From the NCBI RefSeq assembly GCF_023705585.1, contig NZ_BOQE01000001.1, positions 1,005,341 to 1,069,340 of the forward strand: a stretch of DNA of 64,000 nt, in the 5' to 3' direction. Shown here piece after piece: positions 2,518-39,848 of the stretch (positions are counted from its first letter, which is position 1; each line of letters opens with the position of its first letter). A program made the position numbers and the translations under genes. Under the pieces are notes generated by a model. That model searched no databases and had not been told where the DNA came from. It saw only the letters and a list, made by a program, of their open reading frames with translations. The stretch is from Collibacillus ludicampi (GTDB lineage: Bacteria > Bacillota > Bacilli > Tumebacillales > BOQE01).

Positions 2518-2663
2518 CTATCCTATCATTGCAAATCCCCTTCATGCCATACCATGAGACATTTTTGCGACGAAACGAAGCACACCTTCATTTTCCGATC
2601 CTTGCGCGAAAGGTACGCCCGCCAAATCAAAAGTACCATCGGAGGATTGAAAACTGCCTTGGA

Positions 2664-2820
2664 CGGGCGTAATGCTTTGCGTGAGTGAGCGACTTTGAAG
2701 GTCGTCTCGCAACATTTGATTACTATTTCATGCGAGACGACCTTCACGGAGCATGAGCGCAAAGCATATACCCGCTGAGACGACCTCCACGGAGCATGAA
2801 CGCAAAGCATACGCCCCACC
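2664..2820. repeat. Repeat copy B, between ligA and ilvA
   Basis: Most of the 436-base gap between ilvA and ligA is this element. Inner arms GAAGGTCGTCTCGCA (2697-2711) and its complement (2731-2745) lie inside outer GCTTTGCG/CGCAAAGC arms, and one extra right half-unit follows, ending at CGCAAAGCATACGCCC. The flank CAGATTTTCAAAGAAAA just to the right is also found next to copy A, so the mobile or duplicated unit is probably longer than the palindrome. No gene is visible in the rest of the gap. Confidence 0.85.
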
Positions 2821-2837
2821 AAACTCCAGATTTTCAA

Positions 2838-2882
2838 AGAAAAAAGAGCCCCTCTCCCAAGAGTCATTGGGAAGAGGAGCCC
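2838..2882 (-). terminator. Intrinsic terminator after ilvA
   Basis: A long stem (GGGCTCCTCTTCCCAA paired with TTGGGAGAGGGGCTC) is followed on the minus strand by TTTTTTC. It lies 36 bases past the ilvA stop and adjoins repeat copy B. Confidence 0.9.
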
Positions 2883-2917
2883 TATAGATAATCACTTTGA
2901 TTCACAAACGAACCTGA

Positions 2918-4180
2918 TCAGATCAGCAAATTAAACAAGTAAGGATCCTTCGTGATCTCGATATATTGGATACCGTTCCGGTTCAATCGATCGATTAACG
3001 GGTGATAATCGTCTTTACATTTCAGCTCGATTCCAACCAAAGCGGGCCCGTTGTCTTTATTGTTCTTTTTGGTGTATTCAAAACGCGTGATGTCGTCATG
3101 CGGACCTAATACTTTATCCACAAACTCGCGCAAAGCACCGGCACGCTGCGGAAAATTGATAATAAAATAATGTTTCAATCCCTCATACAATAAGGACCTT
3201 TCTTTAATTTCCTGCATCCGGTCGATATCATTATTTCCTCCGCTGACAATACAGACGACGTTCTTCCCTGCGATCTCATCACGATAAAAATCGAGTGCGG
3301 CAATCGGCAAGGCTCCTGCAGGCTCTGCGACGATCGCATTTTCGTTATACAATTCGAGGATTGTCGTACAGACCTTTCCTTCCGGTACCAATACGATATC
3401 ATCGAGTATGTCTTTGCAAATCTCCATCGTGAGATGCCCCACCTGTTTCACCGCCGCGCCATCAACAAATTTTTCGATATCCTTGAGGGTAATCACGTCG
3501 TTTTTATCCAAAGATTCTTTCATTCCAGGGGCGCCTGCCGGTTCCACACCGATGATTTTGGTTGAAGGACTGATTCCTTTGATGTACGTACCTACTCCTG
3601 ATGCCAGCCCTCCCCCTCCGATGCTGACAAAAACATAATCAATGTGTTCTTCCATGTCATTCATAATCTCGATACCGACCGTACCTTGACCGGAAATAAT
3701 TCGCGGATCATCGAACGGATGGACGAAGGTCATTTTTTCTTGCTGACAGTATTTCACGGCTTCCGAATAGGAATCGTCAAACGTATCGCCTGTCAGGATG
3801 ACTTCCACGTAGGAACCGCCGAACAATTTTACCTGAGAGACTTTCTGCCTGGGCGTCGGGGTTGGCATAAAAATTTTCCCTTGGATGCCCAATAGCTTAC
3901 AAGAGTAAGCCACACCTTGCGCATGATTTCCCGCGCTCGCACAAACCACACCATTTTTCAATTCTTCTTCCGACAAACTTTGAATGAAGTTGTACGCGCC
4001 TCTGATTTTAAAAGATCTGACCACCTGAAGGTCTTCACGCTTCAAATAGGTATTGCAGTTATATCGGTCGGATAAAAGGATATTTCTTTGCAAGGGAGTC
4101 TTTTGAATCACATCTTTTAGGTGGTGATTCGCAACAATGATATCTTCTAATGTCACTTTACCTAATGTTACTTTCCCCAT
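2918..4180 (-). CDS. ilvA: Threonine dehydratase IlvA (biosynthetic)
   Basis: The enzyme deaminates L-threonine to 2-oxobutanoate, the first step of isoleucine synthesis, with pyridoxal phosphate. The 420-residue product has the PLP lysine in RSFKIRGAYN, the phosphate-binding loop SIGGGGLASG, and one C-terminal ACT-like regulatory domain (FPQRAGALREFVDKVLGPHDD), which is the Bacillus-type short form rather than the two-domain E. coli form. The ATG at 4180 has GGAGGA 9 bases upstream; an upstream TTG would place the Shine-Dalgarno sequence inside the gene. No other ilv/leu gene is near. It interrupts the pcrA-ligA pair known in B. subtilis and is bracketed by repeat copies B and C. Confidence 0.95.
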   Translation of the reverse strand: MGKVTLGKVTLEDIIVANHHLKDVIQKTPLQRNILLSDRYNCNTYLKREDLQVVRSFKIRGAYNFIQSLSEEELKNGVVCASAGNHAQGVAYSCKLLGIQGKIFMPTPTPRQKVSQVKLFGGSYVEVILTGDTFDDSYSEAVKYCQQEKMTFVHPFDDPRIISGQGTVGIEIMNDMEEHIDYVFVSIGGGGLASGVGTYIKGISPSTKIIGVEPAGAPGMKESLDKNDVITLKDIEKFVDGAAVKQVGHLTMEICKDILDDIVLVPEGKVCTTILELYNENAIVAEPAGALPIAALDFYRDEIAGKNVVCIVSGGNNDIDRMQEIKERSLLYEGLKHYFIINFPQRAGALREFVDKVLGPHDDITRFEYTKKNNKDNGPALVGIELKCKDDYHPLIDRLNRNGIQYIEITKDPYLFNLLI

Positions 4181-4785: not shown

Positions 4786-7023
4786 TCAACACTTCGTGAT
4801 CGGTGCGAATCGCGCCAACAGTTTTCTTTCCCCAATCGGCTCCGGGAAGAGAACGACCAGTTCAAGATCATCTCCGGATCCGGAGCGGCCGACGATTTGA
4901 CCGATCCCCCACTTTTTATGCTGCACTTGTTCACCGATATCCCAAGACAAAGAAAGATCGGCTCCCATTCCTTTGGGAATCTGCAATCTTCCGGGAATGG
5001 CTTGTGCGCGTGCATCCTGCCGTCCATTCTGTCCCTGAATGTTCCATTGACCCAATTGGGCTCTCCGATAGCCGATTTCCTCGATCAAGGACTTGGGAAT
5101 CTCTTGCAAGAAGCGGGATTCCGGGTTATTTTTCGTTTGTCCGAACAACATGCGGGACAACGAAGCTGTAAGAAACAACTTTTCCTCCGCGCGCGTGATC
5201 CCGACATAACACAGACGTCTCTCTTCTTCGATCTCATCTTCGTTGCCGAGCGTTCTCATATGCGGAAACACACCTTCTTCCAATCCGACCAAAAAGACGA
5301 TCGGAAATTCCAGTCCTTTGGCCGCATGCAATGTCATCAGCGTGACCGTATCCGCCTCTTCGTCCACTTCGTCGACATCCGCCACAAGCGCGACATCTGT
5401 CAGAAATTCCAGCAGCTTGCCCCCCGTTGAAGCCGATTGCTTCTTGTCGAACTCCCGGGTGACCGACAGGAACTCGTCAATATTCTCGAGACGCGTTTGC
5501 GCTTCAATCTTCTTCTCGGCTTCCTGTTCCAATTCCCGCCTGTATCCGGTCAACTTTAACATTTCTTCCGTCAGTTCCGTGACCGAGAGAAATTGCGCTT
5601 GTGTCGCCAGGTTGCGGATCAGCAGAACGAATTCTTTAATCTTCTTGTTAAACCGCGCGGACAATCCGACCTGTTCGATTTCCTGCATCGCCGCAAACAA
5701 AGACATTCCGTGCGCTGAGGCATAGGCTTGAATTTTCTCCAAGGTCGAATCTCCAATCCCCCTTTTGGGGACATTGATGATACGCGTTAACGAAATGTCG
5801 TCGCTCATATTGGCGATGAGGCGAAGATATGCGAGAACATCTTTGATCTCTTTGCGTTCATAGAACTTGATGCCGCCGACCAAGGTGTAGGGAATGTTCG
5901 CTTTGATGAAGCTCTCCTCGAGCACGCGGGATTGCGCGTTGGTACGGTACAACACTGCGCAATCCCTGCGCATCCTTCCCTGTTCCACGTAATTCTGGAT
6001 CTGCTGCACGACAAAAAGCGCTTCATCATGTTCGTTCATGGCCCGGTAGAAACTGATCGGTTCCCCCACAGGCTTGTCCGACCAGAGATTCTTCTCCTTG
6101 CGTTGCTTGTTGTTGGCAATCACATGGTTGGCAGCTTCAAGGATCGTTTTTGTTGAACGATAGTTCTGTTCGAGTTTGATCACTGTGGCATCCGGATAGT
6201 CTCTTTCGAAATGAAGAATATTACGGATGTCGGCACCCCGCCATGCGTAAATCGATTGGTCCGAATCACCGACGACGCAGAGATTGCGCCGTTTTTCCGC
6301 CAAAAGCTTGACCAAGCGGTACTGGGCATGATTGGTGTCCTGATATTCGTCCACATGAATATAATGAAACTTGTTTTGATAAAACGAGAGGGTCGACGGA
6401 TCAGACTCGAACAGATCGACCGTTTTGAAAATCAGGTCATCAAAATCGAGGGAATTGTTAGCGCGCAATTTTTTCTGGTAAGCTTCATACACTTGCGCCA
6501 CAACCTGGTCAAACAACGTCTGTGCTTTCTGTGCAAAAGTCCGGTATGATTTCAATTCGTTCTTCGCATGGGAAATCACCGCTTGCACGGCCCTCGGCTC
6601 ATACTTCTTCGGATCCAGGTTCAATTCGGACATACATTGTTTGATCGCCGTCAGCTGATCAGCCGAATCAAGGATCGTGAACGAATGCGTATACCCCAGT
6701 TTGTCGATATCCCTGCGTAAAATGCGCACACACATCGAATGAAATGTGGAAACCCATATGTCATTGGCCATCATCCCGATCAGCCGCTCCACCCGTTCCT
6801 GCATTTCCCGCGCCGCTTTGTTTGTAAACGTGATGGCGAGAATCGACCATGGGGCCACTTTTCTTTCCTGTATCAAATAAGCAATCCGCCGGGTTAATAC
6901 GCTCGTCTTCCCGGAACCTGCTCCCGCAAGAATCAGAAGCGGACCTTCCTGATGGATGACCGCCTCTTTCTGTTGAGGGTTCAATCCCTCAAGAATCGCC
7001 TCCGCTCCACCTACCGTAAACAT
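4786..7023 (-). CDS. pcrA: ATP-dependent DNA helicase PcrA (UvrD/Rep family)
   Basis: This is an SF1A 3'-5' helicase for repair, for removing recombinase filaments and for clearing replication-transcription conflicts. The product (about 745 residues) has Walker A AGAGSGKTSVLTRR, motif II VDEYQDTN, motif III GDSDQSIYAWRGAD, motif IV EQNYRSTKTIL, motifs V/VI (MTLHAAKGLEFP, VGITRAEEKL) and a C-terminal Tudor-like RNA-polymerase-binding module (VQHKKWGIGQIV). The ATG at 7023 matches the family N-terminus but its GAGG is only 3 bases away; a GTG at 7032 is the alternative. In B. subtilis pcrB lies directly upstream; here an HD gene and rseP intervene. Confidence 0.97.
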   Translation of the reverse strand: MFTVGGAEAILEGLNPQQKEAVIHQEGPLLILAGAGSGKTSVLTRRIAYLIQERKVAPWSILAITFTNKAAREMQERVERLIGMMANDIWVSTFHSMCVRILRRDIDKLGYTHSFTILDSADQLTAIKQCMSELNLDPKKYEPRAVQAVISHAKNELKSYRTFAQKAQTLFDQVVAQVYEAYQKKLRANNSLDFDDLIFKTVDLFESDPSTLSFYQNKFHYIHVDEYQDTNHAQYRLVKLLAEKRRNLCVVGDSDQSIYAWRGADIRNILHFERDYPDATVIKLEQNYRSTKTILEAANHVIANNKQRKEKNLWSDKPVGEPISFYRAMNEHDEALFVVQQIQNYVEQGRMRRDCAVLYRTNAQSRVLEESFIKANIPYTLVGGIKFYERKEIKDVLAYLRLIANMSDDISLTRIINVPKRGIGDSTLEKIQAYASAHGMSLFAAMQEIEQVGLSARFNKKIKEFVLLIRNLATQAQFLSVTELTEEMLKLTGYRRELEQEAEKKIEAQTRLENIDEFLSVTREFDKKQSASTGGKLLEFLTDVALVADVDEVDEEADTVTLMTLHAAKGLEFPIVFLVGLEEGVFPHMRTLGNEDEIEEERRLCYVGITRAEEKLFLTASLSRMLFGQTKNNPESRFLQEIPKSLIEEIGYRRAQLGQWNIQGQNGRQDARAQAIPGRLQIPKGMGADLSLSWDIGEQVQHKKWGIGQIVGRSGSGDDLELVVLFPEPIGERKLLARFAPITKC

Positions 7024-38384: not shown

Positions 38385-38410
38385 CTAAAAGGCCATCCGG
38401 CCTCTTTTGT
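38385..38410. terminator. Bidirectional terminator after the SecB-like gene
   Basis: AGGCC/GGCCT stem with ATCC-size loop, flanked by AAAA and TTTT on both sides; on the minus strand it is followed by TTTTAGTTTTT. Confidence 0.75.
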
Positions 38411-38415
38411 ATGAA

Positions 38416-38856
38416 TTATTCCTGTTCAAGTTTTTGTGTTTCATTATTTTTACTATTATCGAGTTCCTCCAATAAGGCAACAATGTTTAATGTAGGGAGT
38501 ATCAAAGGTGCTTCGCTTCCCTTACTCGTAATCTCTGATACTAATCCCCTTAAATAAGGAAATAGTATGGCCAGTGCATTAACTTTGTAATAACTCATAG
38601 CCGTTTCATAATCGTCAATACCATTTAAATGAAAATAACCAGCAATGGAAGCATAAACATATATTGGAGAACTATTTAGAGTCCTATCTCCGATTGAAAA
38701 GTTTAATATGACCCATGCCCCAGACCAATCATCCTGATCAGTTTGTATTTCATAATCGAATTCGGGTACTAGTTCATCTTCACCTTCATAAAACGGATTG
38801 AATTTATATTCGATATTTCTAACTTGGTAATCCCTAAATTGTAGACTAGCATACAT
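38416..38856 (-). CDS. SecB-like chaperone in an accessory cassette
   Basis: The 146-residue protein ends with a segment very like the SecB core helix and loop: ILFPYLRGLVSEITSKG then APLILPTLNIVALLEEL, matching the family pattern LFPYxRxxIsdLvtrGgFpplxLpPvNFdaLy. The N-terminal half is beta-rich as in SecB. Firmicutes normally lack housekeeping SecB, but SecB-like proteins occur with toxin-antitoxin pairs as dedicated chaperones. It overlaps the preceding unknown gene by 11 bases and has AT-rich codon use unlike the flanking housekeeping genes. The assignment rests on motif and length; I could not run a profile search. Confidence 0.7.
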   Translation of the reverse strand: MYASLQFRDYQVRNIEYKFNPFYEGEDELVPEFDYEIQTDQDDWSGAWVILNFSIGDRTLNSSPIYVYASIAGYFHLNGIDDYETAMSYYKVNALAILFPYLRGLVSEITSKGSEAPLILPTLNIVALLEELDNSKNNETQKLEQE

Positions 38857-39139
38857 TTAAAAATGCACCGTCCTTAGTATTGCCGATGGGGAACAAAGGA
38901 ATTCTACTTTTTACTTGGCGAGGTCTTATCAGTTTTACGTTGATATCTTGACATTCCCATGAATTATCAATCATGTACTCTAGCTCTTCATCTGTGTAGA
39001 AAGCTTTTAGCATATCTCTTACGTTTAATTTTTCTAATCCGTTTTCTGTCCTTTGAACAAAACCCTTTACATCACAGTTCTCAGAAACCTTAATTCCTAA
39101 TTCTTTAGCAGTATCTAAAATTTTATTAATGTTTAACAT
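38846..39139 (-). CDS. Unknown middle gene of the SecB-like cassette
   Basis: A 97-residue protein beginning MLNINKILDTAKELGIKV, with FYTDEELEYMIDNSWECQD in the middle and a basic RPRQVKSRIPLFP stretch near the end. ATG at 39139 has GAGAGGA 8 bases upstream and comes one base after the stop of the ART-fold gene; its 3' end overlaps the SecB-like gene. The tight packing suggests a functional trio. By position it could be an antitoxin or client of the chaperone, but it shows no known antitoxin motif. Confidence 0.65.
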   Translation of the reverse strand: MLNINKILDTAKELGIKVSENCDVKGFVQRTENGLEKLNVRDMLKAFYTDEELEYMIDNSWECQDINVKLIRPRQVKSRIPLFPIGNTKDGAFLNVC

Positions 39140-39140
39140 G

Positions 39141-39796
39141 TCATTTATCCTCTCTTTCAATACCTTTAACTAACCTTGGCTTATTACGTTTAAAGTTTCT
39201 TTGTATTTTGGGATTATGAATTTTCACTTCTTCAACATGCACAATATCAGGATCACCACTAATTGCAACTAAATTACGTACACAAATCTGCTGTCCGTGC
39301 AAATATATACCTAACCGCTTAAATATTTCTAACGAATTATATTTAGATTTTGTCGGAAACGTTCTTTGTATAACGTGAAACTCATCAGCTGGTAATAAAG
39401 AGCAAATAAAATGACGAATTTGTTCTTCATTCTTTTCTTCGAATTCCAGGCTGATACCTTCATTTTTTAATTCTTTTTCAACATCAGAAATAAAATTTTT
39501 TAAAACCTCAAGTCCTCTTCTGTTGTCCAGGTTTAGGAAATTTCGTTCATGTACTTTTATTTTTACTTGAAGAACAGCAACTTTTTCCCGTGAAGCTCTG
39601 GTGTTCGCTCAATTTTTGTCTTTCCCCAGATCCTTGCTTGAATATAATCATCCCGAAAAAAATATACTCCAGGCCCTAACCAATGATCGTCTCGTATAAC
39701 TTTGGGGATTTGAAAGCCTGATGAACAGATATTAATTGCTGATTCTTCATCCGTTCCATGAAATGCAGAGATCTCATGTTCAATATCTAAAAACAT
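39141..39796 (-). pseudogene. ART/PARP-fold-like gene with a one-base frameshift
   Basis: The first 73 residues (EISAFHGTDEESAINI, WLGPGVYFFRDDYIQARIWG) look like the first two motifs (His-Gly-Thr and Tyr) of an ADP-ribosyltransferase-like fold. At the run of five A residues (39592-39596 on plus as T) the frame breaks after HGKK. Adding one A restores KVAVLQVKIKVHERNFLNLD and about 140 further residues, including a third motif-like segment HGQQICVRNLVAI, to the stop at 39141. Without repair the gene gives a 77-residue truncated protein. ATG at 39796 has AAGGA 8 bases upstream. Either a real inactivating deletion, a sequencing error, or programmed -1 slippage at AAAAAG is possible. Confidence 0.65.
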
Positions 39797-39808
39797 CTAG
39801 ATCATCCT

Positions 39809-39827
39809 TGCTATTAGCCTATAGCAA
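39809..39827. promoter_or_regulatory. Inverted repeat at the cassette's ribosome-binding site
   Basis: TTGCTAT (39809-39815) and ATAGCAA (39821-39827) form a perfect 7-bp inverted repeat between the promoter and the first start codon, touching the Shine-Dalgarno sequence. Toxin-antitoxin operons often have such operators; here it could also be an RNA hairpin. Confidence 0.45.
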
Positions 39828-39835
39828 CTGCCATG

Positions 39836-39848
39836 AAAATTATACCAA
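39836..39848 (-). promoter_or_regulatory. Extended -10 promoter of the ART/SecB-like cassette
   Basis: On the minus strand TTGGTATAAT gives a perfect TATAAT (39839-39844) with a TGn extension, 43 bases before the first ATG. The -35 region is poor. Confidence 0.6.

Follow-up and report, generated by a model that had tools for sequence, protein, structure and literature searches.

A probable CmdTAC-type toxin-antitoxin-chaperone locus with a broken toxin reading frame in Collibacillus ludicampi

Introduction

What does a member of the Bacilli do with a SecB-like protein encoded at the end of a compact, AT-rich gene trio, and can the trio still work? The question arises from a stretch of 64,000 nucleotides of Collibacillus ludicampi, here called the window, where a toxin gene, a 97-aa middle ORF and a 146-aa SecB-like ORF follow one another on the minus strand and, with their flanking elements, span positions 39847 to 38387. 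The original prediction had read this trio as a candidate toxin-antitoxin-chaperone system in a combination that it did not recognise. Our analysis agrees with that reading, and we conclude that the trio is very probably a locus of the CmdTAC (PD-T4-9) type with a mechanism of that kind. The claim of an unrecognised combination did not survive, as PMC9519451 and PMC11618068 already describe it as CmdTAC/PD-T4-9. In addition, the toxin gene lies in two frames in the given sequence, where a working CmdTAC would have it in one, and the copy is probably an inactivated member of the known system.

Layout and insertion site of the trio

The features of the locus are as follows.

39839..39847, minus strand: extended -10 like element, TGG-TATAAT, upstream of the toxin gene (read from the sequence)
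39563..39796, minus strand: first frame of the CmdT-like toxin, 77 aa, with H13 and Y45 (profile matches and a relative)
39581..39589, minus strand: frame junction at a short A run, where homology changes frame (aligned to the relative, the first piece stops at residue 75 and the second starts at 77)
39141..39584, start approximate, minus strand: continuation of the toxin in the other frame, 147 aa and a stop, with the Q in QQICVRN (homology to the relative)
38846..39139, stop included, minus strand: middle protein, putative CmdA-like antitoxin, 97 aa, C-terminus NVC (position, order, weak N-terminal similarity, tail rule, weak fold model)
38416..38856, minus strand: SecB-like, CmdC-like chaperone, 146 aa (PADLOC, Pfam and PHROG matches)
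38387..38406, minus strand: terminator-like hairpin directly 3' of the chaperone gene (3 sites against 1.0 expected in shuffles, sd 1.0)

The predicted trio is real: the ORFs of the 97-residue middle protein and the 146-residue SecB-like protein were confirmed, and in all four ORF pieces stand for three ancestral genes. The toxin stop codon (39143-39141) and the start of the middle gene (39139) are 1 base apart, while the middle and chaperone genes overlap by 11 bases, spacings that probably allow coupled translation. The extended -10 promoter proposed to serve all three genes was only partly borne out; the element is present, but promoter-like matches in the region are no commoner than chance (7 found against 7.3 expected). 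No Rfam family reached its gathering score between 37700 and 40700.

The trio is an AT-rich insertion. As anticipated, its GC content is low: windows of 400 bases give 0.31-0.35 in the trio and 0.40-0.58 in the flanks shown. The trio sits between two genes that are 1.8 kb apart, one that we take from its sequence to be hpf and one for a small membrane protein. A gene-order search found hpf in the source genome and in 12 of 13 others. The site is empty in four of these 12 hpf-bearing relatives, all of one genus, in which hpf and the membrane gene adjoin (at roughly 20-110 bases, extrapolated from the matches) and the next gene is presumably secA, named in the same way. The membrane-gene match lies more than 1 kb further on in two others (L075, L081), and the remaining six have no such match in the DNA stretch covered.

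A SecB-like chaperone distinct from the export SecB

The assignment of the 146-residue protein to SecB was upheld by profile searches, with matches to Pfam SecB (PF02556; 6.2e-8, 33.1 bits against a cut-off of 26), PADLOC PD-T4-9_C (2.3e-18), phrog_21664 (9.5e-15) and, among solved structures, SecB (1.6e-6). It is the single PF02556 match in the source genome. Although it shares a Pfam family with the export SecB, it falls far under the equivalog level, the best of six NCBIfam SecB equivalog models scoring 30.9 bits against a cut-off of 143. Also unlike the export setting, the resident SecA has no cysteine in its last 30 residues, in line with the predicted absence of a zinc tail.

The toxin gene is split between two frames

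The first gene had been described as an ART-like gene with HGT and GVYF motifs. Both motifs are present, in the 77-aa ORF, but this ORF is not the whole gene: the remainder of the toxin is encoded between about 39584 and 39141 in a different frame, and this frameshift had been overlooked. The first piece aligns to the intact toxin of Bacillus methanolicus PB1 (L002, the same as L010) with 52% identity over 64 columns, up to residue 75, and the second aligns to the same toxin with 33% identity over 111 columns, starting at residue 77; no residues are missing between them relative to that toxin. Both pieces match the A4 toxin profile (9.6e-18 and 1.5e-16) and phrog_14664 (3e-11 for the first; 7.2e-5 for the second, at 39560-39144). 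The first piece also matches Pfam PARP at 1.2e-4, below cut-off, and PADLOC PD-T4-9_A weakly at 0.0024; toxins of four relatives matched the latter model at 0.023 to 8.6e-9.

We judged the fold on the intact relative, L010, whose toxin was modelled with AlphaFold2 using 37 of the toxins (pLDDT 89, pTM 0.84). A sequence search of solved structures found nothing for the intact toxin up to E 1, and Foldseek returned no PDB match to the model at E <= 0.001; in its top ten rows, unrelated proteins are interspersed with the NatRT toxin-antitoxin complex, PARP12 and tankyrase 2. When the Foldseek candidates were aligned with VIA-align, a tool that itself warns that middling Z values are common, PARP1, PARP2, tankyrases, SAIP and MbcT aligned with Z of 8.8-9.4 over 125-143 residues. 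By their titles, the 50 rows shown all belong to the ART family, counting SAIP and MbcT, which we take to be members. The model thus supports an ART/PARP-like fold for the toxin family, as predicted, with Z of about 9 to PARP1 and tankyrase.

The expected H-Y-[E/Q] residues are likewise found, but not in one chain. The catalytic H and Y lie in the first piece and the Q in the second, and the triad would stand on one polypeptide only if the frame shifts. A truncated toxin, deprived of the third residue and most of its fold, would be dead, and the locus would then give no defence now. The toxin gene has probably decayed, with the reading frames of antitoxin and chaperone left open.

Could the break lie in the assembly rather than in the genome? 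An error in the short A run would leave the living strain with an intact toxin and an ordinary, working CmdTAC; the break is located within a run of A, the two pieces are otherwise uninterrupted, and they join seamlessly against the relative. The run is only five bases long, however, none of the window's other long genes seemed broken when the ORF list was read by eye, and broken toxins are also present in some relatives. We regard such an error as rather unlikely but still as a serious rival for the break, and on its account we call the inactivity of the toxin in the living strain no more than likely.

The trio recurs in other genomes and on a plasmid

Scanning genome contigs with a four-toxin alignment gave 96 stretches matching the pattern, and 56 loci were kept; these include two rows of the query alignment (L010 and L013, its rows L002 and L003) and in two cases several loci come from one genome (L017/L054; L019/L020/L022). 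The order toxin, middle ORF, SecB-like gene, with the SecB-like ORF on the same strand and within 900 bases, recurs in 39 of the 56, which confirms the linkage that the original prediction had proposed to look for. This conserved order exceeds chance. A middle ORF, defined as the longest ORF in the gap between toxin and chaperone, is present in all 39 SecB-linked loci. The histidine of the triad is found in 56/56 loci, as is the tyrosine, which is built into the search pattern, and the third residue is Q in 40, E in 2, H in 1 and F in 1, with a gap in 12.

The SecB partner is not universal, since 17 of the 56 toxin loci show none. Three of these 17 end within 414 bases of the toxin. The SecB-like profile matched no downstream ORF in the other 14, of which 13 have an ORF of at least 60 aa downstream of the toxin and one (L053) has none.

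With the chaperone as query, nine of 200 genomes matched, including the source genome, and all nine carry an adjacent match to the toxin profile; four of the nine had been used to build that profile, and four are fresh (L005, L006, L007, L009). Matches also occur in nine plasmid records, whose hosts are Enterococcus, Pediococcus, Lactiplantibacillus and Secundilactobacillus. The Enterococcus faecalis plasmid pNY13412 (L115, 1538-2887) encodes a 218-aa toxin, an 89-aa protein ending VAA and a SecB-like protein, in the same order as in the window, but plasmid-borne and with the toxin in one frame. Genes for a recombinase, an IS30 transposase and an AbiGii toxin are found in the neighbourhood of this plasmid trio. 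In the second of the two plasmid regions read, from Pediococcus, an HTH protein precedes the SecB-like gene. No phage record matched the chaperone at E 1e-5, and the four stretches of viral contigs that matched a pattern were not confirmed.

A variable middle protein with a conserved small-residue tail

With E values up to 1 allowed, the middle protein found no profile in Pfam, NCBIfam or PADLOC and, weakly, two in PHROGs (0.043 and 0.092). Pairwise comparison found N-terminal similarity (E 0.001-0.002), and the middle proteins as a group align poorly, with a mean column identity of 20%. Its model is poor (pLDDT 62, with residues 61-97 under 50), and the pair of N-terminal helices published for CmdA is not clearly visible in this low-confidence model.

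What these proteins share is their end. A tail of the form [ACVGSLI][ACS], with A, C or S as the last residue, closes 39/39 chaperone-linked middle proteins, a rule framed after 18 rows (the window and 17 loci that are among the 39), leaving 22 fresh loci, many of them close relatives with the tail AIAC. The same tail is found in 1/39 toxins and 0/39 chaperones from the same loci, and in 2 of 36 long ORFs that were picked by hand from the minus strand of the window. The window protein, ending NVC, fits the rule, though its letters differ from the LAA of CmdA. The shared tail extends the published remark on LAA and lends support, short of proof, to the idea that Clp-type proteolysis is the common switch. 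That small residues are kept at the end of proteins with next to no shared sequence points to tail-triggered proteolysis as the conserved core of this switch.

Relatives that have no chaperone and shorter antitoxins offer a natural comparison. In Streptococcus sp. 121, two loci (L017, 5538-6007; L054, 5537-5746) have CmdT-like toxins, no SecB-like match, and downstream ORFs of 69 aa, two of them in tandem in L017. These match the N-terminal part of antitoxins from chaperone-linked loci (L017 to L013 at 9e-11, L054 to L010 at 1e-5) and terminate earlier, ending GD and EA, which suggests that the chaperone-dependent tail was lost.

Other loci with a CmdT-like toxin and no SecB-like match look different again. 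L019 of Companilactobacillus hulinensis (5547-6169) has three short, similar-looking ORFs after the toxin. In L029, L041 and L043 the toxin is followed by ORFs of 108, 112 and 100 aa, respectively, all ending KA, possibly a different class of antitoxin.

Relation to CmdTAC and a proposed mechanism

PD-T4-9 was described in E. coli and later renamed CmdTAC (PMC9519451, PMC11618068; a correction to this literature is PMC11445053). According to PMC11618068, CmdT is an ADP-ribosyltransferase that modifies GA dinucleotides in mRNA, CmdA folds and neutralises CmdT, and CmdC protects CmdA, which ends LAA; once the T4 capsid protein has drawn off CmdC, CmdA is lost through ClpP. Homologues were counted in PMC9519451 by a CmdT homologue, any second ORF and a SecB-like third gene, a second ORF of any sequence being accepted because the antitoxin varies. 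The trio in the window has all three: a CmdT homologue first, a second ORF, and a SecB-like gene third. Family support comes from PD-T4-9_C for the chaperone and phrog_14664 for both toxin pieces, that from PD-T4-9_A being weak.

The locus resembles the CmdTAC of E. coli ECOR22 in its gene order, its SecB-like chaperone, its ART toxin with the residues of an H-Y-[EDQ] triad, here spread over two frames, and its small, variable antitoxin with a small-residue tail. It differs in that the similarity is weak and was compared at profile level only; its host is in the class of Bacillus (the source genome shares this class with Bacillus methanolicus, G091, the genome that contains the contig of L010), and its toxin frame is broken. 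Could the trio instead be a different toxin-antitoxin-chaperone system, with a new toxin chemistry and no kinship to CmdTAC? Weak PD-T4-9_A scores and an antitoxin family that cannot be aligned would fit such a system, but gene order, triad, chaperone family and tail type are those of CmdTAC, and the homologue rule of 2022 allows any second ORF; we consider this very unlikely. The mycobacterial TAC (Rv1955-Rv1957) and MqsRAC also have an antitoxin that depends on a SecB-like chaperone, and MqsR is a ribonuclease. In contrast to the ART-like toxin considered here, the toxins of these systems are ribonucleases (PMC9098466, PMC11618068).

We read the locus as a CmdTAC-type system that probably arrived by horizontal transfer and has a broken toxin reading frame. 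By analogy with E. coli, an intact CmdT would ADP-ribosylate mRNA, CmdA would serve both to fold CmdT and to neutralise it, and the SecB-like CmdC would shield CmdA, whose tail invites degradation. A phage protein, the presumed trigger, would divert the chaperone, after which a Clp protease would destroy CmdA and free CmdT. CmdTAC in Gram-positive bacteria is not new. The present locus places the system in another Bacilli lineage and would illustrate how a toxin gene can decay while the frames of its antitoxin and chaperone stay open.

Toxin integrity among relatives

Toxin integrity was scored with a 37-row toxin profile, a toxin being counted as spanned when its match reached position 170 or beyond of 195. 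In 51 of the 56 loci from genome contigs the toxin is covered by a single ORF. Among the others, L038 (Lachnospiraceae MAG, 2652-3579) has its toxin in two frames, split near profile position 110 against 65 here; L032 (Blautia sp., 4983-5363) and L050 (Lachnospiraceae MAG, 2415-2783) have toxins that stop early while the DNA continues; and L022 and L044 have theirs at a contig end or close to one. A class-wide search found a toxin match in 26 of 398 genomes, with a stop inside it in four (the source genome, G090, G171 and G190), although in G090 and G190 the match may only overrun its own end. Damaged toxins are thus occasional and broken at differing places, which speaks for lesions and against a conserved recoding site. 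Since the toxin is spanned by one ORF in 51/56 relatives, the break in the window most likely reflects either a lesion of recent date or an error of assembly, and not conserved recoding.

Programmed -1 ribosomal frameshifting at the A run, yielding a low level of toxin, is compatible with the direction of the shift and, by the general rule for slippery motifs, with the A-AAG tetramer at the junction, but it is extremely improbable: it finds no support in the relatives, where one ORF covers the toxin in all but a few and the sole split one (L038) is broken elsewhere, nor in the folding downstream of the junction, which shows no notable structure (z 0.57), and the codon preceding the run does not seem to suit a canonical slippery heptamer. 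We give hardly any credence, then, to a regulated recoding site from which active CmdT would arise only upon ribosome slippage; were it true, it would add a translational gate to the control by antitoxin and chaperone. Apart from the lesion or assembly error that we favour for the window, another decayed toxin possibly lies in L098 (G171), where a CmdT-like match has an open frame of 80 aa and two stops inside.
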